From: Oscillospiraceae bacterium
Lineage (GTDB): Bacteria > Bacillota > Clostridia > Oscillospirales > Acutalibacteraceae
NCBI GenBank assembly: GCA_028697255.1
Contig: JAQVFM010000017.1
Location: 1-34,202 of the forward strand
DNA: 34,202 bases
Direction: 5' to 3'
Numbering within the stretch: position 1 is the first letter of the stretch; every line of letters starts with the position of its first letter. This document shows, piece by piece, positions 1,295-24,401 of the stretch. Below the pieces are notes generated by a model. It made no database searches. It had not been told where the DNA came from and worked only from the letters and a program-made list of their open reading frames with translations. Made by a program: the position numbers and the translations under genes.

Positions 1295-1750
1295 TCAACC
1301 CTTGACTGCATCGATATTTTCAGCGAGCTTTTCCGAGATCTTGCCACTTTCCCTGATCTCTTCCTTAATATGGGCAGCATGTGTGCCCACATATTTGATA
1401 AAGTCTTTTTGGAATTTTAGAATACGCCCAACATCTATATTTACCAGATGCCTGTTGTTTAAAGCATAAAGAATCAAGACCTGATCTTCAACCGGCATAG
1501 GCTTATACTGTGGCTGTTTGAGGACTTCCATAATGCGTTCGCCATGATTCAGACGATCCAAAGTGTCCTGATTGAGGTCAGAACCAAACTGCGAGAAAGC
1601 AGCTAATTCTTTGTACTGTGCAAACTCGATTCGGAGTGGACCGGCAAGATTCTTCATAGCGGGGATCTGAGCCGAACCTCCAACACGTGAAACAGAGAAG
1701 CCGGGATTAATCGCCGGGCGAACTCCATGGTTAAAGAGGTCAGCTTCCAA
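1295..1750 (-). pseudogene. atpA: C-terminal fragment of F-type ATP synthase subunit alpha
   Basis: Homology begins abruptly at LEADLFNHGVRPAINPGFSVSRVGGSAQIPAMKNLAGPLRIEFAQYKELAAFSQFGSDL; no Walker A region; an in-frame TGA lies a few codons upstream. Confidence 0.88.
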
Positions 1751-1810
1751 ATATTTTCTATTCAGAACTCATGCTAATATCCGATTAAAAGATTATTAAG
1801 TTTAATAATA

Positions 1811-2182
1811 TCAACTCTTCGACGTAAACTTTGCGTTATATATAGCGAGCTGGAAAGATAGTATACCGGCTGCCACTCCCCATAAACTAATCTGTGGTAT
1901 GATGGCACCCAACGCTAATGCAACACCTGTAAGAAGAAGCCTTAAAATATGCTGTATGCTAACATAGTTTCCGGCATGCTTCTGTTCCATTGTGAGTGCT
2001 TTGTCTACGGCACGCTCCAGCAGAAAGACTTTAGCGATACTAACGGCTGAGCCTATCAAAGCTCCGAACATAAATGGAATAAAATCCAAAGAGCGGTGAT
2101 AGATTGCTGAACCTAAAACGCATATCAATGTTGTTATTATTATTATTATAATCATTCGCTTAGCCAAATCCGACAGCTTCAT
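1811..2182 (-). CDS. atpI: ATP synthase subunit I (AtpI-like) membrane protein
   Basis: Four-TM small protein located between an AtpZ-like ORF and an atpA remnant; characteristic atp operon position. Confidence 0.7.
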   Translation of the reverse strand: MKLSDLAKRMIIIIIITTLICVLGSAIYHRSLDFIPFMFGALIGSAVSIAKVFLLERAVDKALTMEQKHAGNYVSIQHILRLLLTGVALALGAIIPQISLWGVAAGILSFQLAIYNAKFTSKS

Positions 2183-2835: not shown

Positions 2836-4209
2836 ATGAAGCAACCAAAAGAATTAATATTGGATACACTGAATCATAAATTTACTGACCAAGTTCCATG
2901 GATTCCGTTTGCGGGAGTTCATGCCGGGACACTGGCGGGTTATGATGCGACCGAGGTATTGACCGACGGTGATAAATTGTTTGAGTCACTAATGCAAGTC
3001 AACAAGCTTTATCGTCCATGCGGCCAACCTGTGGTTTTTGATCTGCAGCTTGAGGCAGAGATTTTAGGTTGTCAGCTTGTGTGGACAAAGGACGGTCCTC
3101 CATCGGTCAGCTCACACCCGCTTGAGGACAATCCGGTTGTTCCATGCCGCTGCACTTTGCCCACCGCCGAGGACGGGCGACTTCCCATGATTCTTGATGT
3201 TATGAGGCGGATGAAGTCTGCCGTTGGGGATACAACAGCACTTTACGGATTGATTTGCGGTCCTTTCACGCTCGCGTCACATCTTCGCGGTAATGATATA
3301 TTTATGGATATGTTTGATGACGAAGATTTTGTCAACAATCTTCTGGATTATTGCGTTGATGTGGGCAAGCGTATGATAGAGCTGTATACACAAGCGGGTA
3401 TGGATGTTATTGCAGTGGTTGATCCGTTGGTATCTCAGGTATCATCGGCTCATTTCGAGGAGTTTTTATCCAAGCCATTTACAACTTTGTTTGATTTTAT
3501 CCGTGATAGCGGCAAGCTTTCCTCTTTCTTTGTGTGCGGTGACGCGACACGAAATATTGAAGTCATGTGCAAAACAAACCCCGATTCTGTTTTTGTAGAT
3601 GAAAATGTCAATATAGTGGAGGCAAAAGCAATCACCGATCGTTATAACGTCGCATTGGGCGGTAACATTCCGCTTACATCAATCATGCTGCACGGAACGC
3701 AGCAAGATAATATGAAATACGTGGTTGACATGCTGGACAGTCTGCCCAACACGCACAATTTTATTGTTGCGCCGGGATGTGACATGCCTTTTGCAGTTCC
3801 TGTCGAAAATACTGTTGCAGTTGCACAGGCAGTGTGGCAGACAGAAGTAGTTCGGGAAATGCTGAAAAACTATGTGTCCGTACAAGAGGATATTGATGTT
3901 GAGCTGCCGGATTATGACAGGCTTATCAAACCGTTGGTCGAAGTGTTCACTTTAGATTCGGCTACATGTGCCGCCTGTACATACATGATGGGTGCGGTAA
4001 ATGCAGCTAAAGAGCGGTATGGCGACTCCATAGATGTAGTTGAATATAAATATACAATAAAAGAGAATATAGCGAGATGCCAAAAAATGGGCGTGGGACA
4101 CCTGCCGTCGGTATATATCAACGGTCAACTAAAATTTTCGTCCCTTATTCCAAGCCGTGAGGAGCTGGATGCTGTTATTGATGAGGCTATAGCCGCTATC
4201 AAAGGGTGA
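2836..4209 (+). CDS. Uroporphyrinogen decarboxylase (MtaA/CmuA) family methyltransferase-like protein with C-terminal thioredoxin-like domain
   Basis: UroD/MtaA signature regions (VPWIPFAGVHAGTLAG, GPFTLASHLRG, VAPGCDMPFAVPVEN); C-terminal CAAC and HLPSVYINGQ (CxxC plus cis-Pro) thioredoxin-like region. Start moved to the ATG at 2836 after AAAGGGGAG. Confidence 0.88.
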   Translation: MKQPKELILDTLNHKFTDQVPWIPFAGVHAGTLAGYDATEVLTDGDKLFESLMQVNKLYRPCGQPVVFDLQLEAEILGCQLVWTKDGPPSVSSHPLEDNPVVPCRCTLPTAEDGRLPMILDVMRRMKSAVGDTTALYGLICGPFTLASHLRGNDIFMDMFDDEDFVNNLLDYCVDVGKRMIELYTQAGMDVIAVVDPLVSQVSSAHFEEFLSKPFTTLFDFIRDSGKLSSFFVCGDATRNIEVMCKTNPDSVFVDENVNIVEAKAITDRYNVALGGNIPLTSIMLHGTQQDNMKYVVDMLDSLPNTHNFIVAPGCDMPFAVPVENTVAVAQAVWQTEVVREMLKNYVSVQEDIDVELPDYDRLIKPLVEVFTLDSATCAACTYMMGAVNAAKERYGDSIDVVEYKYTIKENIARCQKMGVGHLPSVYINGQLKFSSLIPSREELDAVIDEAIAAIKG

Positions 4210-4210
4210 T

Positions 4211-5152
4211 ATGAGAAAGGACACGGATCATTACATGGCAAAGATGTATGTGATTACCGGCTTTCTTGGCGCAGGGAAAACAACCTTTTTAAAGGAATTT
4301 GCGCGTCTGCTGACGGGTGAAAAGCTTGCTGTTTTGGTTAATGAATTCGGCAAGGAAGATGTGGACAGCAAATTGCTTCGTGAATTAAATGCCGCCATGG
4401 AAGAGGTACACAGTGGTTCAATTTTCTGTGCTTGCCGTATAGAGCAGTTTTCGGATGCACTTTCGCGGTTATTAAAGGACAATCCTGATATAATTTTGGT
4501 TGAAACGTCGGGATTGTCCGACCCCACACGCATTCGTACATTGTTGGCAGAGCATTCCAACGCCGATAAGATTGATTATCGTGGTTGTCTGTGCATTGCG
4601 GACGCAGTTAGATTTGAAAAAGTGTATTCCACCGCTTTGGTATGCGGCAAGCAACTGGACATATGCGATGCAGTTATCATTAACAAAACCGATATTGCAA
4701 GTGATGAGCAAAAACAAAAAACGCTTGAACTTATAAAAAATCACCGTCCCGACGTTCCTGTGTATTTAACCAGCCACGGGAGAATTCAGCCTGAGTGGCT
4801 GTATGCCCTTCGCAAACCTACCGGTACTAAGTCTGCAAATTCTTATCATGTTAAGGATGTTTCTCTGCAAAGCCGTCTTGTTACTATAAGGGATACATTT
4901 CCAATGGATAAGCTAATGGATTTTCTTTGCTGCATTGCCCCTGCATCTTTTCGCATAAAGGGATTTGTGCAGTTACAGGAGGGTGTGTTTTTTGTGGACG
5001 CAGTGGGGCAAGACGTAAAGCTGAAACCCTGGGATAAAGAGGTTGAAAGCCTCAACCGGCTTGTCGTTTTAGCAGGCCGGGGATTGCCGTTGTTATCAAC
5101 GCTTAAAGAGGCTGGCAAAAGCTTTAATGACTATATATTATCTATTGAATGA
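4211..5152 (+). CDS. CobW/HypB/UreG-type G3E GTPase (COG0523 family)
   Basis: Walker A ITGFLGAGKTTFLKEF, NEFGKEDVD, Cys motif GSIFCACR, ETSGLSDP, NKTD. Confidence 0.9.
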   Translation: MRKDTDHYMAKMYVITGFLGAGKTTFLKEFARLLTGEKLAVLVNEFGKEDVDSKLLRELNAAMEEVHSGSIFCACRIEQFSDALSRLLKDNPDIILVETSGLSDPTRIRTLLAEHSNADKIDYRGCLCIADAVRFEKVYSTALVCGKQLDICDAVIINKTDIASDEQKQKTLELIKNHRPDVPVYLTSHGRIQPEWLYALRKPTGTKSANSYHVKDVSLQSRLVTIRDTFPMDKLMDFLCCIAPASFRIKGFVQLQEGVFFVDAVGQDVKLKPWDKEVESLNRLVVLAGRGLPLLSTLKEAGKSFNDYILSIE

Positions 5153-5162
5153 GTGGTAAAAG

Positions 5163-5191
5163 CCCACCCGCATTAACTTTCTGCGGGTGGG
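5163..5191. terminator. Terminator between convergent genes
   Basis: CCCACCCGCA...TGCGGGTGGG perfect 10-bp stem; followed by CTTTTA on the minus strand, at the end of the RACo-like gene. Confidence 0.7.
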
Positions 5192-5233
5192 TACCGAAAG
5201 CCTTGTTCTTTTTTAAAATTCCGGACATTAACA

Positions 5234-6829
5234 TTATGTATTCGGGAACATCATCCCGTTTATATATGTATCCATAAAATATGGATTTGTGGAAAGCTCC
5301 ACCGATTTTGTGAATTTGCCGATTTGCTCCGACTGCATGCGTATCGTGTCGCTTAACAAAATCATGGATGCTCCCGAACCTGCCGCGTTGCCGATTGCAT
5401 GTGCTTTATTAGCGAAACCGGGAGGAATAAGCCCGATTCTTTCAGCCGATTTTACATTGATATTACTGCCGAATCCTCCTGCTATGACAAGCTCTTTGAT
5501 ATCTGCATGAGTGTATCCCGCTTCCTTTATCAATGTTAGAATTCCCGCACACACAGCAGATTTTGCAAGCTGAACCGCTCGTATATCCTGTTGCGTTAAT
5601 ATCACTTGCGTCTCAGGCAGACGAAAGGCAGGTTGACCGTTTATCTCGGTAATATTATCTGTAAAGTCATGCCCATCTTCACAAATCATTCCGGTTTCAT
5701 CGATTATACCCGCTTCACACATAACCGAAACAGCATCCAAAAGACCCGACCCGCAAATTCCTGTGGCTGTTCCACCGCCCAAGACTAAACAGATTATGCC
5801 GTTGCTGTGGATTTTAACCTGATACACCGCGCCTGTCCGTGCAGGCATACCTTGATAAATTCCCGCGCCCTCAAATGCAGGCCCCGCCGCTGTTGAACAG
5901 CACCAGAGCATGCCGTTTGCCGCCAGCGCCATTTCTCCGTTGGTGCCTATATCGACAAGCAATTTCGGGCTGTCCGATACAACCCTGCCTTGATAGAAAA
6001 ATTCAGCAGCCAGCAACGCCGTTGTTATGTCGGCACCGACATAAGCGGATATACATCGCGGCAAATATACCTTTGCATCGCACGGCAAATCCAACTCCCG
6101 AGCAGATAAAAACATTCCGAAATAACAATCCTGTTCAAAAGGTGCCATTGTGATGGATTTCGGATTTCTTTGGCAAAGCAGATACAGCATGGCGGTGTTC
6201 CCGGTCAAAACAAGACTGTCTACTTTTATAGTAGTAGTTGAATCCGATTTGCTTAGCTTGCTGACAAGCCGGGATATGCAGCTGCGAATAGTGTCGGCTA
6301 ATGCTTTTCCCTCGCCGTCAAGTGATTTTTGCAGGCGCGAAATAACGTCCGCGCCGTACATCGACTGTGGATTTTTTTCTGCCATTGTTTTAATCAGCGT
6401 TCCGTCAGACAACCGATATAAATATGCTGCAACGGTTGTTGTGCCTATATCAACCGCAATGCCGAAATCCTTTCCCCACGGATTAAGCTCAAAAGGGGGA
6501 AAATAGCCGTCAGTAAGGATATTGTCTTTATATAATCCGGCTGAAAGAAGCTGGACCTTTACGTCGCCCAAAGCTTCTGTCATACAGGCATACCTAATAT
6601 TTTCACTTTTTTCTTTATCTGTCAGAAAGGAACTCTCGCTTTCGCTCATGGGAGAAAGCTCGCCTGTGGCCTTTACCTTGCATTTCAGGCACTTTTGCCT
6701 GCCGCCACAAGGCATTTCAACTGCAATGTTGTTTTGGGTAAACAGTTTAGACAATCTCACGGGGGCAGTGAATGTAATGTTTTTTTCAAGCCCTGTTGAG
6801 GTAATAATTTCTAATACCGATTGCTTCAC
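5234..6829 (-). CDS. ASKHA-domain / 2Fe-2S reductive activator of corrinoid proteins (RACo/RamA-like)
   Basis: N-terminal PCGGRQKCLKCKVKATGEL ferredoxin-type cluster motif; ASKHA motifs GIAVDIGTTTVAAYL, LLVDIGTNGEMAL, GPAFEGAGIYQGMPARTGAV. GTG at 6829 with AAAGGCGG upstream is the likely start; the ORF track extends to 6892. Confidence 0.88.
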   Translation of the reverse strand: MKQSVLEIITSTGLEKNITFTAPVRLSKLFTQNNIAVEMPCGGRQKCLKCKVKATGELSPMSESESSFLTDKEKSENIRYACMTEALGDVKVQLLSAGLYKDNILTDGYFPPFELNPWGKDFGIAVDIGTTTVAAYLYRLSDGTLIKTMAEKNPQSMYGADVISRLQKSLDGEGKALADTIRSCISRLVSKLSKSDSTTTIKVDSLVLTGNTAMLYLLCQRNPKSITMAPFEQDCYFGMFLSARELDLPCDAKVYLPRCISAYVGADITTALLAAEFFYQGRVVSDSPKLLVDIGTNGEMALAANGMLWCCSTAAGPAFEGAGIYQGMPARTGAVYQVKIHSNGIICLVLGGGTATGICGSGLLDAVSVMCEAGIIDETGMICEDGHDFTDNITEINGQPAFRLPETQVILTQQDIRAVQLAKSAVCAGILTLIKEAGYTHADIKELVIAGGFGSNINVKSAERIGLIPPGFANKAHAIGNAAGSGASMILLSDTIRMQSEQIGKFTKSVELSTNPYFMDTYINGMMFPNT

Positions 6830-6923
6830 TTTATATTGCCGCCTTTCTAAGGAAAACCCCAAATTTACTATCATAAATGATACATGATTCATTCTAAATA
6901 AGCTATCATAATATTTTAATTTT

Positions 6924-6932
6924 TGGTATACT
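6924..6932 (+). promoter_or_regulatory. Possible extended -10 promoter element upstream of the DUF1638 gene
   Basis: TGGTATACT (TGnTATAnT form); no clear -35 box. Confidence 0.3.
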
Positions 6933-6943
6933 ATTTATATCTA

Positions 6944-7070
6944 AGTCAATTGCGTAAAGCACGGGCGTCCACAGATTGCAACTACAAGTTGTGATTTTAC
7001 AAAAATGCACTCAACATATTGTAGGTGCAAACTATGTGCGCCCGCAAATCCGTATATTTCGTAATCGACT
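6944..7070. mobile_element. MITE-like inverted-repeat element, copy B
   Basis: Inverted ends AGTCAATTGCG...CGTAATCGACT; internal inverted GGGCG...CGCCC and CTACAAG...TTGTAG arms; flanked by ATATCTA direct repeats at 6937-6943 and 7071-7077. Confidence 0.7.
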
Positions 7071-7093
7071 ATATCTAAAAGGAGACAAGCAAT

Positions 7094-7834
7094 ATGCGTA
7101 TACATATTATAGCTTGCAGAGTATTTTCAAGAGAACTGAATTACTATGCATCTCAAAGCCCTCATATCGTAGACATTACTTGGCTTCCGCAGGGGCTTCA
7201 TGATACGCCCGAAAAATTGCGTCAGATGCTGAAAAGTACGTTAGACGATCTGTATTTTCAAAAAGAAAGGCAGATGCTTAAACACTGGCCTGACTACATA
7301 GTACTCGGTTACGGGCTGTGTTCAAACGGCATAGTCGGTCTTGAAAGCCGCGATATACCTTTAGTCATTCCAAAAACCGATGACTGTATTGCGATTTTTT
7401 TAGGCTCTCAAAAAAGATATCTTGATTTGTTTGAGCAATATAACGGTACATATTGGCTTAATAGCGGCTGGATTGAAACCGCGTTTATACCATCGAAAGA
7501 GATGCTTGACAAAAGATATAAGGAATATGTTAAGCTATATGGAGAAGAAAATGCAGAATTTTTATTGGAGCAGGATAAGCTCTGGATAAAAAATTACAAT
7601 TCCTGTTGTTATATCGGGTCTTCTGTTTACGATTGCCCCGACTACCCATTGCTTGCTGAACAAATAGCAAATGAGTACAACTGGGAATATCGAAGGTTTG
7701 AAGGCGAGTCCCGTCTAATCCGCGCCATGACTGAAGGAACATGGAATGATACAGAGTTCTTGATCTGTCCATGCAATCACCGTGTAGAAGCTACATACGA
7801 CAATACTAAAATACGTGCCGTTCCAATTAAGTAA
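7094..7834 (+). CDS. DUF1638 family protein
   Basis: MRIHIIACRVFSRELNYY..., DYIVLGYGLCSNGIVGL, PKTDDCIAIFLGS, TYWLNSGWIE are characteristic of DUF1638; RBS AAAAGGAGA. Confidence 0.8.
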   Translation: MRIHIIACRVFSRELNYYASQSPHIVDITWLPQGLHDTPEKLRQMLKSTLDDLYFQKERQMLKHWPDYIVLGYGLCSNGIVGLESRDIPLVIPKTDDCIAIFLGSQKRYLDLFEQYNGTYWLNSGWIETAFIPSKEMLDKRYKEYVKLYGEENAEFLLEQDKLWIKNYNSCCYIGSSVYDCPDYPLLAEQIANEYNWEYRRFEGESRLIRAMTEGTWNDTEFLICPCNHRVEATYDNTKIRAVPIK

Positions 7835-7854
7835 TTAACCATAGGAGGAGACGA

Positions 7855-9063
7855 ATGCAGCAACAACTTGCAAAGCGGTGTATGGAAAATGTTGCACACC
7901 TATCAGCATTGAGCGGTGTATCCGCTAATGTGATAAGTGTTATACAAAAAGCTTTTTTACATACTAAGAATAATTTTTGCGATGAATGCACATGTTCACG
8001 CTGCAATGCGCTTAATACTCATCTTTACGGATGCAATGAAGCATATCGTTGGAATGGAAAATATATTTACTACTGCCCGCTGGGGCTTGTTTTTGTTGCC
8101 TCATCGGTTTCAGATGATTCAGGAAACCTGGTAGGCGGAACAATAATGGGTCCCTTGTTAATGGGAGATTCAGATGATGTTCTGGCAGAAATGACCGATT
8201 GCATGCGAAGTAAGGCTGTCTTGTTGCCGGCTCTTTCAACCTCAAAGGTTACGGATCTGGCAGCCGTTTTGTCAGCAGTTACTTCATATGCGGCGGGTGT
8301 ACCTCACAGTCGAGTCGGCAGATTTGTTTATGAGCAAAAAAAGCTGCTCAACACAATCTATTCGGCACAGGAAAAGTTTTTAAATGACGGTGAAAATTCT
8401 AAATATCCCATCGAAACCGAAAAAAAGCTGCATACGCTGATTTGCAGTCACGATAAAAGCGGTGCGCAGGAATTATTAAATGAGCTTTTGGGACATATTT
8501 ACTGCACCAATAATTTTGATTTGGCAACTATTAAGACACGCGTGGTTGAACTGGTGGTAATTCTGTCCCGCGCCACCATAGATGCAGGAGCCGACATACG
8601 GGAAGTGTTTATGTCCAACACAAATTATTTAAATGAGATCGAGCAGTTTTCATCACTTGAAGAGCTTAGTGTGTGGTTAAACTGCATCATGCACAGATTT
8701 ATTGCATATTCGTTTGATTTTACTCAGGTTAAGCATTCAAATGTTGTGTATAAGGTGATGGAATATGTTAAGGCAAACTACAGTAAAAAAATCTCTTTGG
8801 ACGATATTGCACGACACGTTTATTTAAGCCGATCATATCTCAGCAGTATGTTTAAAGAAGAAACGGGGGAAAGCCTTTTTTCATACATAAACAAGGTGCG
8901 TGTCGAAAAAAGCAAGCTGTACTTGCTTGACGATGCAATTAGCCTTGTAGATATATCATCTTTATGCGGTTTTGAGGATCAAAGCTATTTTACTAAGGTG
9001 TTTAAAAAATATACTGGTGTATCCCCAAAAAAATACAGGGACAGTCGTGGGAATATAGCTTAA
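7855..9063 (+). CDS. AraC family transcriptional regulator with N-terminal PocR-type sensory domain
   Basis: C-terminal double HTH (VKANYSKKISLDDIARHVYLSRSYLSSMFKEETGESLFSYINKVRVEKSKLYLLDDAISLVDISSLCGFEDQSYFTKVFKKYTGVSPKKYR); Cys-rich PocR-like N-terminus (CDECTCSRCNAL...YGCNEAYRWNGKYIYYCPLGL). Confidence 0.9.
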   Translation: MQQQLAKRCMENVAHLSALSGVSANVISVIQKAFLHTKNNFCDECTCSRCNALNTHLYGCNEAYRWNGKYIYYCPLGLVFVASSVSDDSGNLVGGTIMGPLLMGDSDDVLAEMTDCMRSKAVLLPALSTSKVTDLAAVLSAVTSYAAGVPHSRVGRFVYEQKKLLNTIYSAQEKFLNDGENSKYPIETEKKLHTLICSHDKSGAQELLNELLGHIYCTNNFDLATIKTRVVELVVILSRATIDAGADIREVFMSNTNYLNEIEQFSSLEELSVWLNCIMHRFIAYSFDFTQVKHSNVVYKVMEYVKANYSKKISLDDIARHVYLSRSYLSSMFKEETGESLFSYINKVRVEKSKLYLLDDAISLVDISSLCGFEDQSYFTKVFKKYTGVSPKKYRDSRGNIA

Positions 9064-9259
9064 TTAATGCCTTTTTACAAGGGTTTTTACCGGATTAATG
9101 AAATAAATTTCAAAAAGGCATAATATTTTTCTATAATAATAATAGTAAAGCTAATATAATATTTTTAACATGCTGTTTTTTACTTTTATCAGTTACATAT
9201 ATTTTGAGATTTGTTATTGTAAAAACAGTATAAATCATTGTTTTCGGGAGGATCAAGAT

Positions 9260-9892
9260 ATGGGATTATTAGAAGATATCAGCAGCTTTCTGCAGCAGGG
9301 GCGCGCACCTATAGTTAAAGAAAAAGTTCAGGAAGCTTTGGATCAGGGCATTGCACCTCAGGAAATTCTGGAAAAAGGCTTGCTGGACGGCATGGGCATT
9401 ATTGGTGATAAATTTAAGAAGAATGAAATATTTGTGCCCGAGGTTTTGATTGCAGCACGTGCGATGAATGCAGGTGTGGGGATTTTAAAGCCGCATCTGG
9501 TAGAAGCAGGAGTCGAATCAAAAGGAACTGCTGTCATTGGTACGGTTAAGGGAGATTTGCACGATATCGGCAAAAATCTTGTTAAGATGATGCTGGAAGG
9601 CAAAGGACTTAGTGTAATCGATCTTGGCGTGGATGTATCATCCGAGCAGTTTGTACAGGCTGCAATCGACAACAATGCAGATATTATTTGTTGTTCGGCA
9701 TTACTTACCACTACCATGGGAGAAATGAAAAATGTTGTGGCTGCAGCGGAAGAAAAAGGTATCCGCGATAAGGTCAAAATCATGGTTGGTGGCGCTCCAA
9801 TAACGCAAAGCTTCTGTGATTCAATCGGCGCAGATTGTTACGAACCCGATGCCGCTTCGGCAGCCGATGCAGCACTGGCATTTTGCAGTTAA
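9260..9892 (+). CDS. Corrinoid (B12-binding) methyltransferase protein, MtaC/MtbC-like
   Basis: GTVKGDLHDIGKNLV (DxHxxG cobalamin-binding motif), N-terminal helical cap domain; ATG at 9260 preceded by GGGAGGATC. Confidence 0.95.
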   Translation: MGLLEDISSFLQQGRAPIVKEKVQEALDQGIAPQEILEKGLLDGMGIIGDKFKKNEIFVPEVLIAARAMNAGVGILKPHLVEAGVESKGTAVIGTVKGDLHDIGKNLVKMMLEGKGLSVIDLGVDVSSEQFVQAAIDNNADIICCSALLTTTMGEMKNVVAAAEEKGIRDKVKIMVGGAPITQSFCDSIGADCYEPDAASAADAALAFCS

Positions 9893-11018: not shown

Positions 11019-11152
11019 AGAGCAGTTAAGTGAACGATTAAAAATTTCTCCTGTTGCGTAAACCGGTATTTTATTATATAATGCTGTCATAATTGAAAAC
11101 CAAAGCCAAAATTTATGACGAGTTATTTGGCGCATGTGTTAAGGAGCTTTTC

Positions 11153-12325
11153 ATGGAAATCCTTATTAGAATATTTATTTTACATATAAAAATTATATAC
11201 TCTATTTTTAAGCTTCTGCCTGTGGATAGCCACAAGGTTGTTTTTTTGAGCAGAAATTTTGACACTCCGCCACTCGATTTTAGATTGCTTGAAAATGAGC
11301 TTAACAAGAATTTCACCGGCTATAAAACGGTGTTTTTAACAAGAAGAATACGCGGCGGAATACCGAACATGATTGGTTATTATTTTCATATAATTCGGCA
11401 GCTTTTTCACATTGCAACAACCAATGTTTGCGTTATAGATTCTTACATAATACCAATTAGTGTTTTAAATCACCGCAAAGATTTGCGCGTTATCCAAATA
11501 TGGCACTCGATGGGTGCAATAAAGAAGTTTGGTTATCAGACGCTTGGTACAAGATACGGCAGAGATACAAAATTGTCATCGTTACTGCATATGCATGAGA
11601 AGTATGATGTGATTGTTTCGGGCTCTTATGATATGATCCCATATTATTGCGAGGCGTTCAACACGCCAAGCGAGCATTTTTTTCCTGTTGGTTTGCCCAG
11701 AATTGACTATATCGTCGGCAGCAAGGATGATATTCAAAGACGCATATACGGCAAATATCCTGAGTTAAAGCAAAAGCCGGTCATACTCTATGTGCCTACG
11801 TTCAGGCCGGAGATTGATGATGGTATTAATAGATTAATTGAGAGCGTTGATTTTGATAAGCATACACTGATTATTAAAAAGCACCCAAACGATCAAAGGG
11901 AGTTTAAAGATAATCGTGTTACCAATATACAAGGCTTTTCGGCGCTTGAATTGTTAACCGTAGCAGATCATATTATTACTGATTATTCTGCAATTTCTAT
12001 TGAAGCATCCGCACTGTTAAAATGCGTTTATTTTTATGTCTATGATTATGACAAATATATTGAATCAAACGGTCTTAACATAGATTTATATAACGAAATG
12101 CCCGGGTGTGTTTTTAAAAATGCGGACAAGCTTATGAAAAAAATTAACCACGGGAGCTATGACTTTAAAAGCATCCGTGATTTTAGAGACAAATATGTTG
12201 TTAACAACGGTTATTCGGCACAGATAATAAGCGCATTAATCGACGAATGTGCAAATCGTGTTTGGTCGGGTAATATTGAGCAATTGAGGCGTAAGTATGA
12301 TAAAGTTCCTGAAACAGTTGACTAA
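11153..12325 (+). CDS. CDP-glycerol glycerophosphotransferase family protein (TagB/TagF-like)
   Basis: VIQIWHSMGAIKKFGYQ, VILYVPTFRPE, IIKKHPNDQ, HIITDYSAISIEAS; ATG at 11153 after AAGGAGC. Confidence 0.88.
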   Translation: MEILIRIFILHIKIIYSIFKLLPVDSHKVVFLSRNFDTPPLDFRLLENELNKNFTGYKTVFLTRRIRGGIPNMIGYYFHIIRQLFHIATTNVCVIDSYIIPISVLNHRKDLRVIQIWHSMGAIKKFGYQTLGTRYGRDTKLSSLLHMHEKYDVIVSGSYDMIPYYCEAFNTPSEHFFPVGLPRIDYIVGSKDDIQRRIYGKYPELKQKPVILYVPTFRPEIDDGINRLIESVDFDKHTLIIKKHPNDQREFKDNRVTNIQGFSALELLTVADHIITDYSAISIEASALLKCVYFYVYDYDKYIESNGLNIDLYNEMPGCVFKNADKLMKKINHGSYDFKSIRDFRDKYVVNNGYSAQIISALIDECANRVWSGNIEQLRRKYDKVPETVD

Positions 12326-13538
12326 GAAAAGCGTCGGGCTGCGAAAGCTTGTCCGTTTTCTGATTTATTGTATCAGAAGTCTTAGATATTTTGTGTATTA
12401 TCTAAGCGGCAGAACGCAACCCAACTTAGTTTTGTTCGAGTCTTATATGGGCAGGGCATATGCATGCAGCCCGAAAGCGTTATATGAAGCAATGCTGCGG
12501 GATAATGCTTACAGCTCATTTAAGTTTATCTGGGCATTTAGGGATTGTGAAAAATATGATTTTTTAAAGAAAAACCCTAATACCAAAGTTATTAAATACA
12601 TGTCTGCAGATTATTTAAGGGCATATTCAAGGGCTAAATACTGGATTAGCAATTCGCGTATTCCCGAGCAGATCCGCAAAAGGCAGGATCAAATATATGT
12701 TCAGACATGGCATGGCACCCCTTTAAAAAGGCTTGGGTATGATGTGGAGCTTGACGGCGGCAACGCAATGAACACCCTTGACGAGCTGCGAAAAAAGTAT
12801 TTTTATGACGCTCGCCGCTATACGTATATGCTCTCACCCTCTGCGTTTTGCAGTGAAAAGCTCACTTCCGCGTTTAATCTTAAAAATATACACGACAGCG
12901 ACGTTATTCTGGAAATGGGTTATCCTCGCAATGATTTTCTGTTTCGATACAGTGAAGAGGACATTAAACGTGTTAAAAATACCCTTGGTTTGCCACAGGG
13001 GAAGAAAGTTATTCTTTATGCGCCGACATGGCGTGACAACCAGCACGAAACAGCCGTGGGTTACACCTATGAATTAAAGACAGACTTTGAACTTTTGCGC
13101 CGTGAACTGGAGTCCGAATATGTAATTTTATTCCGTGCCCATTATTTTATTGCCAACAGCTTTAATTTTGAATTTTTTAAAGGGTTTGTGTATAATGTAT
13201 CTGATTATGATGATATAAATGAATTGTATATTATAAGCGATATTTTGGTTACCGACTATTCAAGTGTATTTTTTGATTATGCTAATCTTAAGCGACCAAT
13301 GATTTTTTATATGTATGATTTAGAAGATTACAAAAATCATTTAAGAGATTTTTATATTGATATAAAAGCACTGCCCGGCGAAATTGTAAAAACTGAGCAT
13401 CAGCTAATAGACGCTATACGCAGGGCAAACAGCGATTTTATATATGACGGCAAATATAAAGACTTTAACCGGAAATACAATTATTTGGATGGTCCTGACA
13501 TTAGTGAAAGGGTGATAAAGAAGATTGTAGCAATATAG
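12297..13538 (+). CDS. CDP-glycerol glycerophosphotransferase family protein (TagB/TagF-like), second copy
   Basis: YVQTWHGTPLKRLGYDVE, VILYAPTWRDNQ, DILVTDYSSVFFDYANLKRPMIFYMYD. Confidence 0.92.
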   Translation: MIKFLKQLTKKSVGLRKLVRFLIYCIRSLRYFVYYLSGRTQPNLVLFESYMGRAYACSPKALYEAMLRDNAYSSFKFIWAFRDCEKYDFLKKNPNTKVIKYMSADYLRAYSRAKYWISNSRIPEQIRKRQDQIYVQTWHGTPLKRLGYDVELDGGNAMNTLDELRKKYFYDARRYTYMLSPSAFCSEKLTSAFNLKNIHDSDVILEMGYPRNDFLFRYSEEDIKRVKNTLGLPQGKKVILYAPTWRDNQHETAVGYTYELKTDFELLRRELESEYVILFRAHYFIANSFNFEFFKGFVYNVSDYDDINELYIISDILVTDYSSVFFDYANLKRPMIFYMYDLEDYKNHLRDFYIDIKALPGEIVKTEHQLIDAIRRANSDFIYDGKYKDFNRKYNYLDGPDISERVIKKIVAI

Positions 13539-13567
13539 GCTGATTATTAAAAAAGGGGACAAGCAAC

Positions 13568-13981
13568 ATGAAAAGGGTATTGACATATGGTACGTTCGAT
13601 ATGCTGCACGAGGGTCATATCAATTTGCTTAGACGTGCAAAAGCACTTGGGGATTACCTTATTGTGGGGTTGTCCACAGATGAGTTTAATGCTATCAAAA
13701 ATAAAAAGGCTTATTTCCCGTATGAAAAACGCAAGCTTATTCTCGAATCAATACGGTATGTCGATTTAGTCATTCCTGAAAAAACATGGGAACAGAAATT
13801 GGACGATGTTAAAAATTATTGTGTTGATATTGTGGTTATGGGCAGCGACTGGGAGGGCAGCGACAAGTTTGAGTATTTAAGGAAGCATGTCGAGCTTGTT
13901 TTTTTGCCGAGGACAAAAGGTATTTCATCAACAAAAATTAAACGAAGCTGTGGAGAGCTATTGCGTGCAGCCGGAAAGTGA
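13568..13981 (+). CDS. tagD: Glycerol-3-phosphate cytidylyltransferase
   Basis: VLTYGTFDMLHEGHINLLRRAKALGDYLIVGLSTDEFN and ISSTKIKRS nucleotidyltransferase motifs. Confidence 0.93.
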   Translation: MKRVLTYGTFDMLHEGHINLLRRAKALGDYLIVGLSTDEFNAIKNKKAYFPYEKRKLILESIRYVDLVIPEKTWEQKLDDVKNYCVDIVVMGSDWEGSDKFEYLRKHVELVFLPRTKGISSTKIKRSCGELLRAAGK

Positions 13982-13995
13982 CGGATTGATATTAA

Positions 13996-14778
13996 ATGCA
14001 ACGATTTTTTAAAGACTTAAAGCGATATTACAGGTATATCCTGTATGCTTCTAAGAGTGAACTTAAATCGGAAGTTTCATATTCATATCTAAACTGGCTT
14101 TGGTGGATTTTAGAGCCGGTGCTATTTATGCTTATATATGTTTTTGTCGTTCGTATTGTTTTTAGAACGAGCGAAAAGTATTTTCCGGTTTTTGTACTTA
14201 TCGGGCAAATGGTATGGATGTATTTTAACAGAACAGTCAAAAGAAGTGTAAAAATAGTCAAAAGCTATCGAAGTGTGATTACAAAGATATATGTGCCCAA
14301 ATTTGTCTTTACATTAATTAATATGTTTGTCAACTCGTTTAAGATGTTTATATCATTCTTAATCATAATTGTGATGATGCTTGTATCCCGTGTGCCTTTA
14401 ACATGGAATATATTATATTTCTTACCGGTAGTGTTTGTTCTCAACTTGGTTATATTTGGTATATGTATGATACTTATGCATTACGGTGTGTATATAGGAG
14501 ATTTAAATAATCTGATAAACGTGCTTCTTAGATTTATTTTTTATCTTTCAGGTATATTTTACTCGGTTAAAAATCGCGTGCCCGCACCTTATAATAAGTT
14601 TGTATTAAAGCTAAATCCTATTGCTTTTTTGATTGACCAGATGCGTGACGTGTTGATTTACGGCAAAAAGGCTGATTTGCGATTTTTGGTGATTTGGTCT
14701 GTAACAGGACTTTTGCTTTCAATTGTGGGCATATGGAAAGTTTATAAAAATGAAAACAGCTATGCGAAGGTGATATAG
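13996..14778 (+). CDS. tagG: Teichoic acid/polysaccharide ABC exporter permease (TagG-like, ABC-2 type)
   Basis: Multi-TM permease between tagD and the ATPase; ELKSEVSYSYLNWLWWILEPVLFMLIYVFVV. Confidence 0.88.
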   Translation: MQRFFKDLKRYYRYILYASKSELKSEVSYSYLNWLWWILEPVLFMLIYVFVVRIVFRTSEKYFPVFVLIGQMVWMYFNRTVKRSVKIVKSYRSVITKIYVPKFVFTLINMFVNSFKMFISFLIIIVMMLVSRVPLTWNILYFLPVVFVLNLVIFGICMILMHYGVYIGDLNNLINVLLRFIFYLSGIFYSVKNRVPAPYNKFVLKLNPIAFLIDQMRDVLIYGKKADLRFLVIWSVTGLLLSIVGIWKVYKNENSYAKVI

Positions 14779-15515
14779 TGTCGAATATTGCGTTATCCGT
14801 TAAGGACTTGCATATACGTTATCACGCTCTGAAACCGGTGTCGATTAAAAACTCTATAATTAAACCTAAAAGAATCAAGAAGGATTTCTTTCACGCCGTC
14901 AAAGGTGTTTCATTAGAGGTGCCCAAGGGTCAGATCGTGGGCATTGTCGGGAAGAACGGCAGTGGCAAATCCACATTGCTCAGGGCTATTGCAGGTGTTT
15001 TTTCACCGGACGAGGGAAGTATTGATTTATACGGTAATTCGGTATCTTTGTTATCAATCGGAGTGGGCTTTCAGAGCATGTTAACAGGATATCAGAATAT
15101 TTTTCTTTCAGGATTGCTTTTAGGGTTTACCGAAGAGCAGATTCGCAGCAAGGTCAAAGAAATCATTGAGTTTTCAGAGTTAGGCCGTTTTATTTACAAG
15201 CCGGTAAAGACATATTCAAGCGGTATGTATTCCAAACTGGCTTTTTCGATTACTGCAATTCTGGAAACTGATATTTTGCTCATTGACGAAGTGTTGAGCG
15301 TGGGTGATGCGGCATTTAAACAAAAGAGCTATAACCGCATGAGGACACTGATTGATGACGAAAACAGAACAGTTGTTATTGTATCTCACAGCAACAAAAC
15401 ATTGCTTGATTTATGCGACACTATTATTTGGATGCATAACGGTAAAATTAAGATGAAAGGCGATCCGACCGAAGTAATTGACAGTTATAAAAAATTTATG
15501 AAAGTTAAAGGTTAA
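14778..15515 (+). CDS. tagH: Teichoic acid/polysaccharide ABC exporter ATP-binding protein (TagH-like)
   Basis: Walker A GIVGKNGSGKSTLLRAIAG, signature YSSGMYSKLAFSI, Walker B DILLIDEVLSVGD. Confidence 0.92.
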   Translation: MSNIALSVKDLHIRYHALKPVSIKNSIIKPKRIKKDFFHAVKGVSLEVPKGQIVGIVGKNGSGKSTLLRAIAGVFSPDEGSIDLYGNSVSLLSIGVGFQSMLTGYQNIFLSGLLLGFTEEQIRSKVKEIIEFSELGRFIYKPVKTYSSGMYSKLAFSITAILETDILLIDEVLSVGDAAFKQKSYNRMRTLIDDENRTVVIVSHSNKTLLDLCDTIIWMHNGKIKMKGDPTEVIDSYKKFMKVKG

Positions 15516-21883: not shown

Positions 21884-22789
21884 GTGAATGTGTCTGTAAA
21901 CGGTATAATATGTTTGGACAAACCCAAGAACATAACCTCGTTTGCATGCTGCTCAGTATTTCGTCGCCTGCTGAATACAAAAAAAATCGGCCATGCAGGC
22001 ACACTTGACCCTATGGCAACCGGCGTGCTGCCATTGCTTGTGGGACAGGCCACTCGTGCATTGGAGTATTTACCGGTGCAGGATAAGCGCTACACCGCGA
22101 CTCTTCGCTTTGGATATGTCAGCGATACACAGGATATATGGGGCAGCATGACAGCCACAGGTTGTTCGCTGCCCCTTTTCAGTGATATAAATTCTGCTCT
22201 GGCTTCATTCAGAGGACAGATTGAGCAAATACCGCCAATGATATCTGCAGTAAAACATCAAGGAGTTAAGCTATATGAGCTTGCACGTAAGGGTATTGAG
22301 GTTGAACGCAAGGCTCGCCCCGTTACCATTTATTCGCTTGATGTAATTGATTACGACCAAAAGACAGGCGAGCTTAAACTTGATTGTCACTGTTCTAAAG
22401 GCACTTATATACGCACGCTTTGTGCGGATTTGGGTGAAATGCTGGGATGTGGCGCCGTTATGTCGTCACTGCGCCGTACCATGGCGGCGGGACTTAACCT
22501 AAATCAGTGTATAACAATTGACGAAGCACATAAGCTTGCTGAAAAGGGCTTGCTTGAGTGCAAGCTGATTTCAATTGAGAGTGTTTTTCAAGAGTATAAC
22601 AGTGTTACCGTAACGAGTGCGCAGGCCAAGCGTTTTCAAAACGGTGGAGCTCTTTTGCTTGACAGGCTGAACAAAAGTGTAGATGGTATTACACGTGTTA
22701 ACGCTCCAGACGGTACATTTTTGGGACTGGGCAAGCCAGAGAACGATGAGCTTAAAATACTTAAACTGTTTACCGGCGGAGGAAATTAA
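21884..22789 (+). CDS. truB: tRNA pseudouridine(55) synthase TruB
   Basis: NGIICLDKPKNITSF...KKIGHAGTLDPMATGVLPLLVGQATR. Confidence 0.96.
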   Translation: MNVSVNGIICLDKPKNITSFACCSVFRRLLNTKKIGHAGTLDPMATGVLPLLVGQATRALEYLPVQDKRYTATLRFGYVSDTQDIWGSMTATGCSLPLFSDINSALASFRGQIEQIPPMISAVKHQGVKLYELARKGIEVERKARPVTIYSLDVIDYDQKTGELKLDCHCSKGTYIRTLCADLGEMLGCGAVMSSLRRTMAAGLNLNQCITIDEAHKLAEKGLLECKLISIESVFQEYNSVTVTSAQAKRFQNGGALLLDRLNKSVDGITRVNAPDGTFLGLGKPENDELKILKLFTGGGN

Positions 22790-22790
22790 A

Positions 22791-24401
22791 TTGCGCAACT
22801 TGAAAATATATACATTAAAAAAAGGCGGTTGTACAATACCCAAACGCCCGCGTGCAGTTGCTTTGGGAATTTTTGACGGCGTTCATATCGGGCACAGGGC
22901 GGTAATACTTAACGCTGTGGGGGTTGAGCTGAAAAATGGCGAGTATATAGCGCCATCAGTGCTCACATTTTGCCAGTCCCCGAGTGAATTGCCAAAAGAC
23001 GGTGCCCGCGAGCTGTTAACTTTAAATCAAAAGACAGCAGCCCTTGCTACTTTAGGTGTAGAGGAATGGATACAGGCAGACTTTGAGCAATTGCGCGAGT
23101 TTTCGCCTGAGCGGTTTGTTAATGAAATTCTGCATCATGTTCTTGACGCACGACGCGTATGCTGCGGTTTTAATTATCGGTTTGGAAAAGACGCCTCGGG
23201 CAATGCCGACACACTAAAAGAGCTTTGCAGACCGCTTGGTATTGAGGTTGTGGTTGCCAATCCTGTGCTCGTCGATGACGAACCAGTCAGTGCCAGTCGT
23301 ATCCGTCGGCTTGTTGAAAACGGTGAGATGGAAAAGGCTGCAAGGCTGATGGGGCGTCCGTTTACTTTGGATCTCGAAGTCGTTTGCGGGCAGAGGTTAG
23401 GGCGTCTGCTTGGATCTCCTACACTTAATCAGCCCATGCCTCAAAATTTTGTGCATCCACGTTTCGGTGTTTATATTTCAAGCATTGAGGTTGACGGGCG
23501 TGTAATGCACGGAGTTACAAATATCGGTATTCGCCCGACGGTTGGAAGTAACACACCGCTTGCCGAAACATGGATTGCGGATTATGACGGCGATTTATAC
23601 GGACGGCGTGTACCGGTCAGTCTTATAAAGTTTTTGCGCAGCGAAAAAAAGTTTGAATCTGTCGATGACTTGAAAAAACAAATATTTTATGATGCCGAAC
23701 AAGCAAAACAGGCGGTTTTTGGAACGCCGGACAACAGTATACGCGCTGTATTGTTCGATTTCGACGATACATTGCAGGAACGCCGGCGTGCATTTTTAAA
23801 ATATTGTGATTTCTTTTTTAAAAAGTATTTTCCCGATTTGCCGCAGCAAGAAATTGAAGCACGAAAAGTTGATATGCTGTTGCGGAACAAGGGAGGATAT
23901 GTCAATTACATTGACTTTTTTACGTCTTTGTTTCAGGATTGGGGATGGGAAGATGCTCCACCCGTTGGCGATATATACCATGAGTTTCAGTTGCGTTTTC
24001 CCGAATTTGTTTCGTTGTTTCCGGAAACAGTACAGGTTTTAACCGAAGTTAAGCGGCGCGGATATCTTGTCGGAGTGATAACCAACGGTACTTCTCTTAT
24101 GCAAAATCGCAAATTAGATGTCAGCGGACTTCGCCCATTTCTTGATATTGCGGTAGTATCAGGCGATGAGATGGTGCATAAACCCGACGCCGAAATTTTC
24201 AGGCGAGCCGCGGCGCGGCTGGGCGTTGCGTGCCAAAACTGCATTTATGTCGGTGATCACCCGGTAAATGACATACAGGGAGCGCTTGGTGCCGGTATGC
24301 GCGCGGTTTATATAAACGCATACGGCAGCGATGTTCACCCCGAAGATGCACCCGAAATAGGCAATCTTAACGAGCTTTTAGAATTGTTGCCAAAGCTATG
24401 A
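22791..24401 (+). CDS. ribF: Bifunctional riboflavin kinase/FAD synthetase (RibF) fused to a C-terminal HAD-family hydrolase
   Basis: RibF motifs ALGIFDGVHIGH, GFNYRFGKDASG, VSASRIRRLVENG, VTNIGIRPTVG, KFLRSEKKF; then HAD motifs LFDFDDTLQ, VITNGT, KPDAEIF, YVGDHPVNDIQGA in one ORF. TTG start after GGCGGAGG. Confidence 0.92.
   Translation: MRNLKIYTLKKGGCTIPKRPRAVALGIFDGVHIGHRAVILNAVGVELKNGEYIAPSVLTFCQSPSELPKDGARELLTLNQKTAALATLGVEEWIQADFEQLREFSPERFVNEILHHVLDARRVCCGFNYRFGKDASGNADTLKELCRPLGIEVVVANPVLVDDEPVSASRIRRLVENGEMEKAARLMGRPFTLDLEVVCGQRLGRLLGSPTLNQPMPQNFVHPRFGVYISSIEVDGRVMHGVTNIGIRPTVGSNTPLAETWIADYDGDLYGRRVPVSLIKFLRSEKKFESVDDLKKQIFYDAEQAKQAVFGTPDNSIRAVLFDFDDTLQERRRAFLKYCDFFFKKYFPDLPQQEIEARKVDMLLRNKGGYVNYIDFFTSLFQDWGWEDAPPVGDIYHEFQLRFPEFVSLFPETVQVLTEVKRRGYLVGVITNGTSLMQNRKLDVSGLRPFLDIAVVSGDEMVHKPDAEIFRRAAARLGVACQNCIYVGDHPVNDIQGALGAGMRAVYINAYGSDVHPEDAPEIGNLNELLELLPKL

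Follow-up and report, generated by a model that had tools for sequence, protein, structure and literature searches.

Six genes at positions 2836-9892 of the window, which is the whole stretch of 34,202 nucleotides that was analysed, bring together a UroD-type protein fused to a thioredoxin domain (UroD-Trx), a COG0523 GTPase, a reductive activase, a DUF1638 protein, a PocR-AraC regulator and a corrinoid protein. We give about an even chance to the reading that this locus is a folate-independent corrinoid module whose constant enzyme, UroD-Trx, acts on the thiol side (MtaA/MtsA-like) while the donor-side enzyme varies, and in which the UroD-Trx of this organism may carry out both half-reactions. 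The family is widespread, and gut species are among its anaerobic carriers, yet no description of the fusion was found in the literature searched, which took in little of the subscription literature. Because many carriers lack a recognisable folate route, the UroD-Trx family may reveal methyl transfer onto or off sulfur in anaerobes that do without folate or coenzyme M.

Gene organization of the locus

The window corresponds to contig C37 of an 88.5% complete genome of 1.59 Mb in 79 contigs; MAGs assigned to Ruminococcaceae/Oscillospiraceae are its nearest named relatives. The six genes that the earlier note had predicted are all present where it placed them, and each family assignment is backed by Pfam. 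The UroD-Trx fusion of 457 amino acids (2836..4209, plus strand) matches URO-D (E 3.7e-45) and, above the cut-off, Thioredoxin_3 (E 9.5e-7; 29.2 bits against 24.8, with the CxxC present). It is followed by the COG0523/CobW-family G3E GTPase (4211..5152, plus strand; cobW/CobW_C), and then by the RACo/RamA-type corrinoid reductive activase on the minus strand (5234..6892; Fer2, RACo middle and RACo C-terminal domains). The DUF1638 protein (7094..7834, plus strand; DUF1638), the PocR-domain AraC-family regulator (7855..9063, plus strand; PocR and HTH_AraC) and the corrinoid protein, with its cap domain, B12-binding domain and DxHxxG motif (9260..9892, plus strand; B12-binding_2 and B12-binding, and NCBIfam), complete the set.

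The only tight pairs are UroD-Trx and COG0523, separated by 1 base, and DUF1638 and the AraC gene, separated by 20 bases. The gap from the AraC gene to the corrinoid gene is 196 bases, and the latter has its own ribosome-binding site (GGGAGG, 5' of the ATG at 9260), as does UroD-Trx (GGGGAG, 5' of the ATG at 2836). Since RACo lies on the strand opposite to the other five genes, the locus is not one operon. Two congeners (L032 and L033) repeat the order UroD-Trx, COG0523, (rSAM), RACo, DUF1638, AraC, corrinoid, and all six genes are under purifying selection (dN/dS ~0.03-0.2), with the UroD-Trx and corrinoid proteins lowest overall; order and selection on every gene together indicate that the arrangement is no product of chance. 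Riboswitch control was rejected, as no Rfam match of any kind was found in the window. The regions 5' of the UroD, RACo/DUF1638 and corrinoid genes have no common word of at least 10 bases that involves the UroD promoter, and a shared operator motif for these genes was rejected on that ground.

Three other regions of the window deserve mention. At 1295-2182 (minus strand), an AtpI-like gene is followed directly by a frame of 151 amino acids with the C-terminal domain alone of an alpha/beta subunit of ATP synthase, and then by an HSP20 gene. The arrangement looks like what remains of an F-type ATP synthase operon after its deletion, or like an assembly join. A single 572-residue frame at 22683-24401 (plus strand) joins RibF (FAD synthetase/riboflavin kinase) to a C-terminal HAD hydrolase. 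Genes for a CDP-glycerol glycerophosphotransferase-like protein, a cytidylyltransferase and an ABC exporter cluster at 11093-15515, probably a teichoic-acid-type polymer locus.

The UroD-Trx family, its metal site and its GTPase partner

A scan of genome contigs recovered 80 UroD-Trx loci from Clostridia, Anaerolineae and Asgard archaea, nearly all of them matching along the entire protein with 50-90% identity; Eubacterium callanderi and Acetobacterium fimetarium are examples of culturable carriers. Of 391 genomes drawn evenly from the class, 39 carried the protein, nearly always with the full profile including the thioredoxin domain. UroD-Trx proteins were monophyletic in a tree with related UroDs, on a long stem and with a support of 0.92.

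The URO-D barrel spans residues ~1-335 and the thioredoxin domain residues ~366-451. AF2 gives a model of high confidence (pLDDT 93.5, pTM 0.90), which implies a defined packing of both domains. Its top Foldseek match is the Methanosarcina mazei methyltransferase PDB 4ay7 (TM 0.88 by target), so that UroD-Trx has the UroD-type TIM barrel of the SCMTs, and MtaA/MtbA-type methylcobalamin:CoM methyltransferases are also its closest match by sequence. Both cysteine ligands of these soluble enzymes are kept as well. UroD-Trx nevertheless differs from them in its low identity (22% to 4ay7), in its extra thioredoxin domain and in its scores, which fall below the cut-offs of TIGR01463/NF040654 for the MtaA/CmuA subfamily (124.1 against 235.4 bits) and of the MtaA equivalog (111.6 against 400 bits). 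It differs above all in the metal site: the sequence Phe232-Val-Cys234 (3529..3537, plus strand) aligns to H-I-C of 4ay7, the second retained cysteine position being Cys315 (codon 3778..3780, plus strand). Phe232, Cys234 and Cys315 are found in 83 of 83 members, and the zinc-ligand histidine of MtaA/MtbA is thus replaced by phenylalanine throughout. The His-x-Cys...Cys zinc ligands typical of SCMT-type zinc S-methyltransferases, which the nearest MtaA-like UroD relatives retain, are therefore incomplete in this family. Loss of the histidine may have impaired the metal site or altered it; CdmB is active without zinc (PMC13222342).

The cysteines of the thioredoxin CxxC, Cys378-Ala-Ala-Cys381 (3967..3978, plus strand), are invariant in 73 of 73 aligned members. 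We know of no CoM-like acceptor thiol in these bacteria. It is conceivable, though we think it quite doubtful, that this dithiol is itself catalytic, reaching the UroD active site to replace the lost histidine as a ligand or to accept the methyl group. If so, this would be a corrinoid methyltransferase that carries its own thiol instead of coenzyme M and is served by a dedicated G3E GTPase of variant metal motif.

Co-conservation of the six genes, which the earlier note had set as a test of its reading, proved uneven. Neighbourhood counts across the 80 loci place UroD-Trx and COG0523 at the core. COG0523 lies within 6 kb of UroD-Trx in 68 of 80 members and is the next gene downstream in 57 of 74 loci. 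Within the same distance were found the corrinoid gene in 40, the PocR-AraC gene in 39, RACo in 26 and DUF1638 in only 8 of the 80, in counts that depend on a simple ORF script and on many loci that end at contig edges.

The window GTPase has the features expected of its family (PF02492, E 2.3e-36), with conserved G20, G22, K23, T24 and T25 in the Walker A motif and K159 and D161 in NKxD. A CXCC motif has been described for all COG0523 members (Haas 2009, PMC2770081), but the window protein carries GSIFCxC, reading GSIFCAC, in place of GCxCC, and this variant is present in 77 of the 84 COG0523 proteins of UroD-Trx loci. The variant motif would also set it apart from COG0523 subfamily 13, which clusters with mtaA/mtaB/mtaC (PMC2770081) and is otherwise similar as a G3E GTPase adjoining corrinoid methyltransferase genes. 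In Anaerolineae, another COG0523 subgroup with a GCxCC-like motif occupies the same place next to UroD-Trx, suggesting that the function was recruited independently there. We infer that the partner is a metal chaperone or insertase for UroD-Trx, and an unusual COG0523 metal chaperone would thereby gain a concrete client hypothesis. In five loci (L049, L053, L058, L083 and L036) a TauABC/SaoP-like ABC transporter, which may import the substrate, stands beside UroD-Trx/COG0523, accompanied in four of the five by a DUF5714 gene.

Methyltransferases of the genome and of its relatives

As the earlier note had claimed, the locus is a corrinoid methyl-transfer locus without MttB or MtaB, and neither protein, and hence no three-component MttB/MtgB or MtaB system, was found in the 88.5%-complete genome; MtaB was likewise not found in the four carriers searched for it. 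UroD-Trx is the only URO-D protein of the assembly and, MetH apart, its only recognisable methyltransferase candidate, which extends to the assembly what had been proposed for the locus. A pterin-binding search of the genome returned a dihydropteroate-synthase-like protein and MetH, on contigs C63 and C74 and none on C37, and found no stand-alone folate methyltransferase, including the MtrH/MtgA-type methyl-corrinoid:pterin methyltransferase of O-demethylase (Odm/Mtv/Mto/Cdm) systems. Two B12-binding_2 proteins are encoded, the corrinoid protein of the window and a MetH of ~833 residues. MetH is neighboured by a separate gene of its own for an activation-domain-like protein, which scores 24.3 bits where the cut-off is 25, so that RACo probably serves the UroD-Trx system alone. 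With the genome 88.5% complete, these absences are provisional.

The lack of a second methyltransferase turned out not to be general. One is encoded within 8 kb in 29 of 72 UroD-Trx loci, belonging to one of two UroD groups, to a distant UroD-like family or to MttB, and the 43 of 72 without one include many that end at contig edges. In the window's own genus, two of three congeners have one beside UroD-Trx: the URO-D gene lies directly after the corrinoid gene in L032 and directly before UroD-Trx in G002, and L126 (G004) has none in the locus. Nearly all of the 48 carriers have further URO-D proteins. MttB occurs in 15 of these 48 carriers and its association is limited to a single region of the tree that lies apart from the branch of the window; MttB as an obligate partner was rejected on this count. 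The distant family, whose kinship to UroD rests on weak profile matches, comprises proteins of ~430 amino acids with a YGCCE motif (L075:8011-9306, L051:15507-16769, L053:6519-7760 and L071:555-1844), and its L075 member, of a kind not found in the window's genome, has no Pfam or NCBIfam match. The family is possibly an undescribed donor-side methyltransferase.

The search for folate methyltransferases covered 45 carriers, three methyltransferase-rich carriers being left out, and found none of MtgA/MtvA type within 20 kb of UroD-Trx. In ~35 of the 45, the pterin-binding matches were only dihydropteroate-synthase-like and/or MetH-like, or there were none, as was the case in 6. In L054, MetH lies ~5 kb from UroD-Trx.

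These distributions bear on which side of the transfer UroD-Trx serves. It might be a donor-side (MT1) demethylase of an O-, N- or halo-methyl substrate, the methyl group passing to folate by way of MetH or another enzyme. MT1 enzymes of the UroD superfamily are well established (MtvB, OdmB, MtoB, CdmB and CmuA; PMC13222342, PMC8630106), regulators with a PocR domain are known from such systems too (mec cassette, PMC9768040), and a genome whose sole candidate besides MetH is UroD-Trx would agree with this role. We nevertheless regard it as rather unlikely, because UroD-Trx is closest to SCMTs by sequence and fold, because both cysteine ligands are invariant where one or both are replaced in O-methyltransferases (PMC10418091), because most carriers are without the dedicated folate MT2 of the Odm, Mtg, Mto and Cdm systems, and because a donor-side role seems to suit the variable UroD and MttB proteins encoded nearby better. 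A constant, SCMT-like protein with two thiolate ligands, in carriers mostly without a folate acceptor route, favours a thiol-side (MtaA/MtsA-like) role over that of a direct O/N-demethylase, and proves neither.

A thiol-side role need not exclude a separate donor enzyme here too. UroD-Trx could be purely acceptor-side (MT2), with a donor enzyme that is missing from the assembly or of an unrecognised family; this would fit the incompleteness of the genome, the 7-8 URO-D proteins of each of the three UroD-Trx congeners against one here, and the URO-D gene next to the corrinoid gene in L032. The searches for a URO-D partner, MttB, MtaB and the distant UroD-like family were negative in this genome, however, and the locus is complete, with unrelated genes on both flanks, so that any partner must be elsewhere in the genome. 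We consider this reading unlikely.

Known systems and a proposed mechanism

The closest described kind of system is the type 1 mlp cluster (Kountz and Balskus, PMC10418091), which shares with the window an MtaA-like UroD, a corrinoid protein, a Ram/RACo activase, an anaerobic host and the absence of a folate methyltransferase nearby (none within 20 kb here). Such clusters have at least two Mlps (Mlp2 and Mlp3) and are transcribed in one direction, whereas the window has one UroD, fused to thioredoxin, and RACo on the minus strand. They further differ in having H-x-C...C instead of F-x-C...C, and the window system in having COG0523 as a constant partner and a genus without selD above the cut-off. 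MtsA/MtsB, the methylthiol:CoM methyltransferase of Methanosarcina, is likewise composed of one MtaA-family methyltransferase and one corrinoid protein, but no CoM is expected in the window system, which has the thioredoxin fusion and has lost the zinc histidine. MtvB, OdmB, MtoB, CdmB, CmuA and MecE resemble UroD-Trx as UroD-superfamily enzymes that methylate a small corrinoid protein and are served by a RACo-type activase, and the mec system also has a PocR-type regulator. Those with a defined MT2, however, use a folate or H4MPT methyltransferase, which was not found here, and the published descriptions found of UroD-type O-demethylases and dehalogenases include no thioredoxin domain.

The likeness to type 1 mlp clusters, which have been linked to methyl-selenide (PMC10418091), raises the question of a methylated metal or metalloid (As, Se, Te or Hg), bound by the two-cysteine site and the CxxC with the corrinoid carrying the methyl group. 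The thioredoxin domain weakly matches ArsE-type, HUIPC and SaoT models, and among the neighbouring genes of relatives are DUF2284, DUF5714 (with weak likeness to MbdU) and an ABC permease with weak likeness to SaoP; all of these NCBIfam matches, however, are below the curated cut-offs. No ars or mer gene was found among the representative neighbours that were annotated, and a selD above the cut-off is found in no more than 27 of the 48 carriers, with the four of the window's genus not among them. A metal or metalloid substrate thus appears very improbable, and the absence of a selD above the cut-off from this genus speaks against selenium salvage, the role put forward for type 1 mlp clusters.

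In the mechanism that we infer, from catalysis and substrate to the identity of the metal and the role of the thioredoxin domain, RACo, with DUF1638 as its likely helper, would maintain the corrinoid protein as Co(I), and UroD-Trx would transfer a methyl group between this corrinoid and a sulfur compound, either thiol or thioether, that its two-cysteine metal site binds. The fused CAAC thioredoxin domain would keep the site or the product reduced, or present the thiol. The COG0523 GTPase would load metal into UroD-Trx, and the PocR-AraC protein would induce the module on a small organic ligand. In many relatives the donor side would fall to the second, variable methyltransferase of UroD, distant UroD-like or MttB type. 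MtsA is described as carrying out both half-reactions (Tallant 2001, cited in PMC10762971). As no donor-side enzyme was found in the window's genome, UroD-Trx probably does both as well, or its partner lies in the unassembled ~11%.

The activase combines an N-terminal [2Fe-2S] domain, with conserved Cys62/68/71/103, with the RACo middle and C-terminal domains, and its best PDB match is RACo itself (3zyy/4c1n). The corrinoid protein, whose best PDB match is 1y80, has conserved D99, H101 and G104; the earlier note was right to call it a corrinoid protein, but by score it resembles MtgC_2 (239 bits) more than MtaC (125-132 bits), the likeness that had been suggested. Small hydrocarbon derivatives are the predicted ligands of PocR domains, which occur in the regulator of the mec cassette (PMC9768040). 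Phaeobacter genetics tie DUF1638 to a RamA-like protein (PMC5764234), by analogy with which the DUF1638 protein is a probable helper of corrinoid reactivation; its AF2 model is confident (pLDDT 91.0, from 11 sequences) but has no PDB fold match below E 0.001. The slot next to RACo is often taken in other UroD-Trx loci by DUF2284 or an activation-domain-like protein, which may be alternative reactivation helpers. The latter is a small protein, encoded on its own, that resembles the B12-activation domain of MetH (L128:3143-3730, L082:7839-8492 and L054:15968-16609); it adjoins MetH or RACo in UroD-Trx loci, and the L128 copy scores just below the Pfam cut-off.
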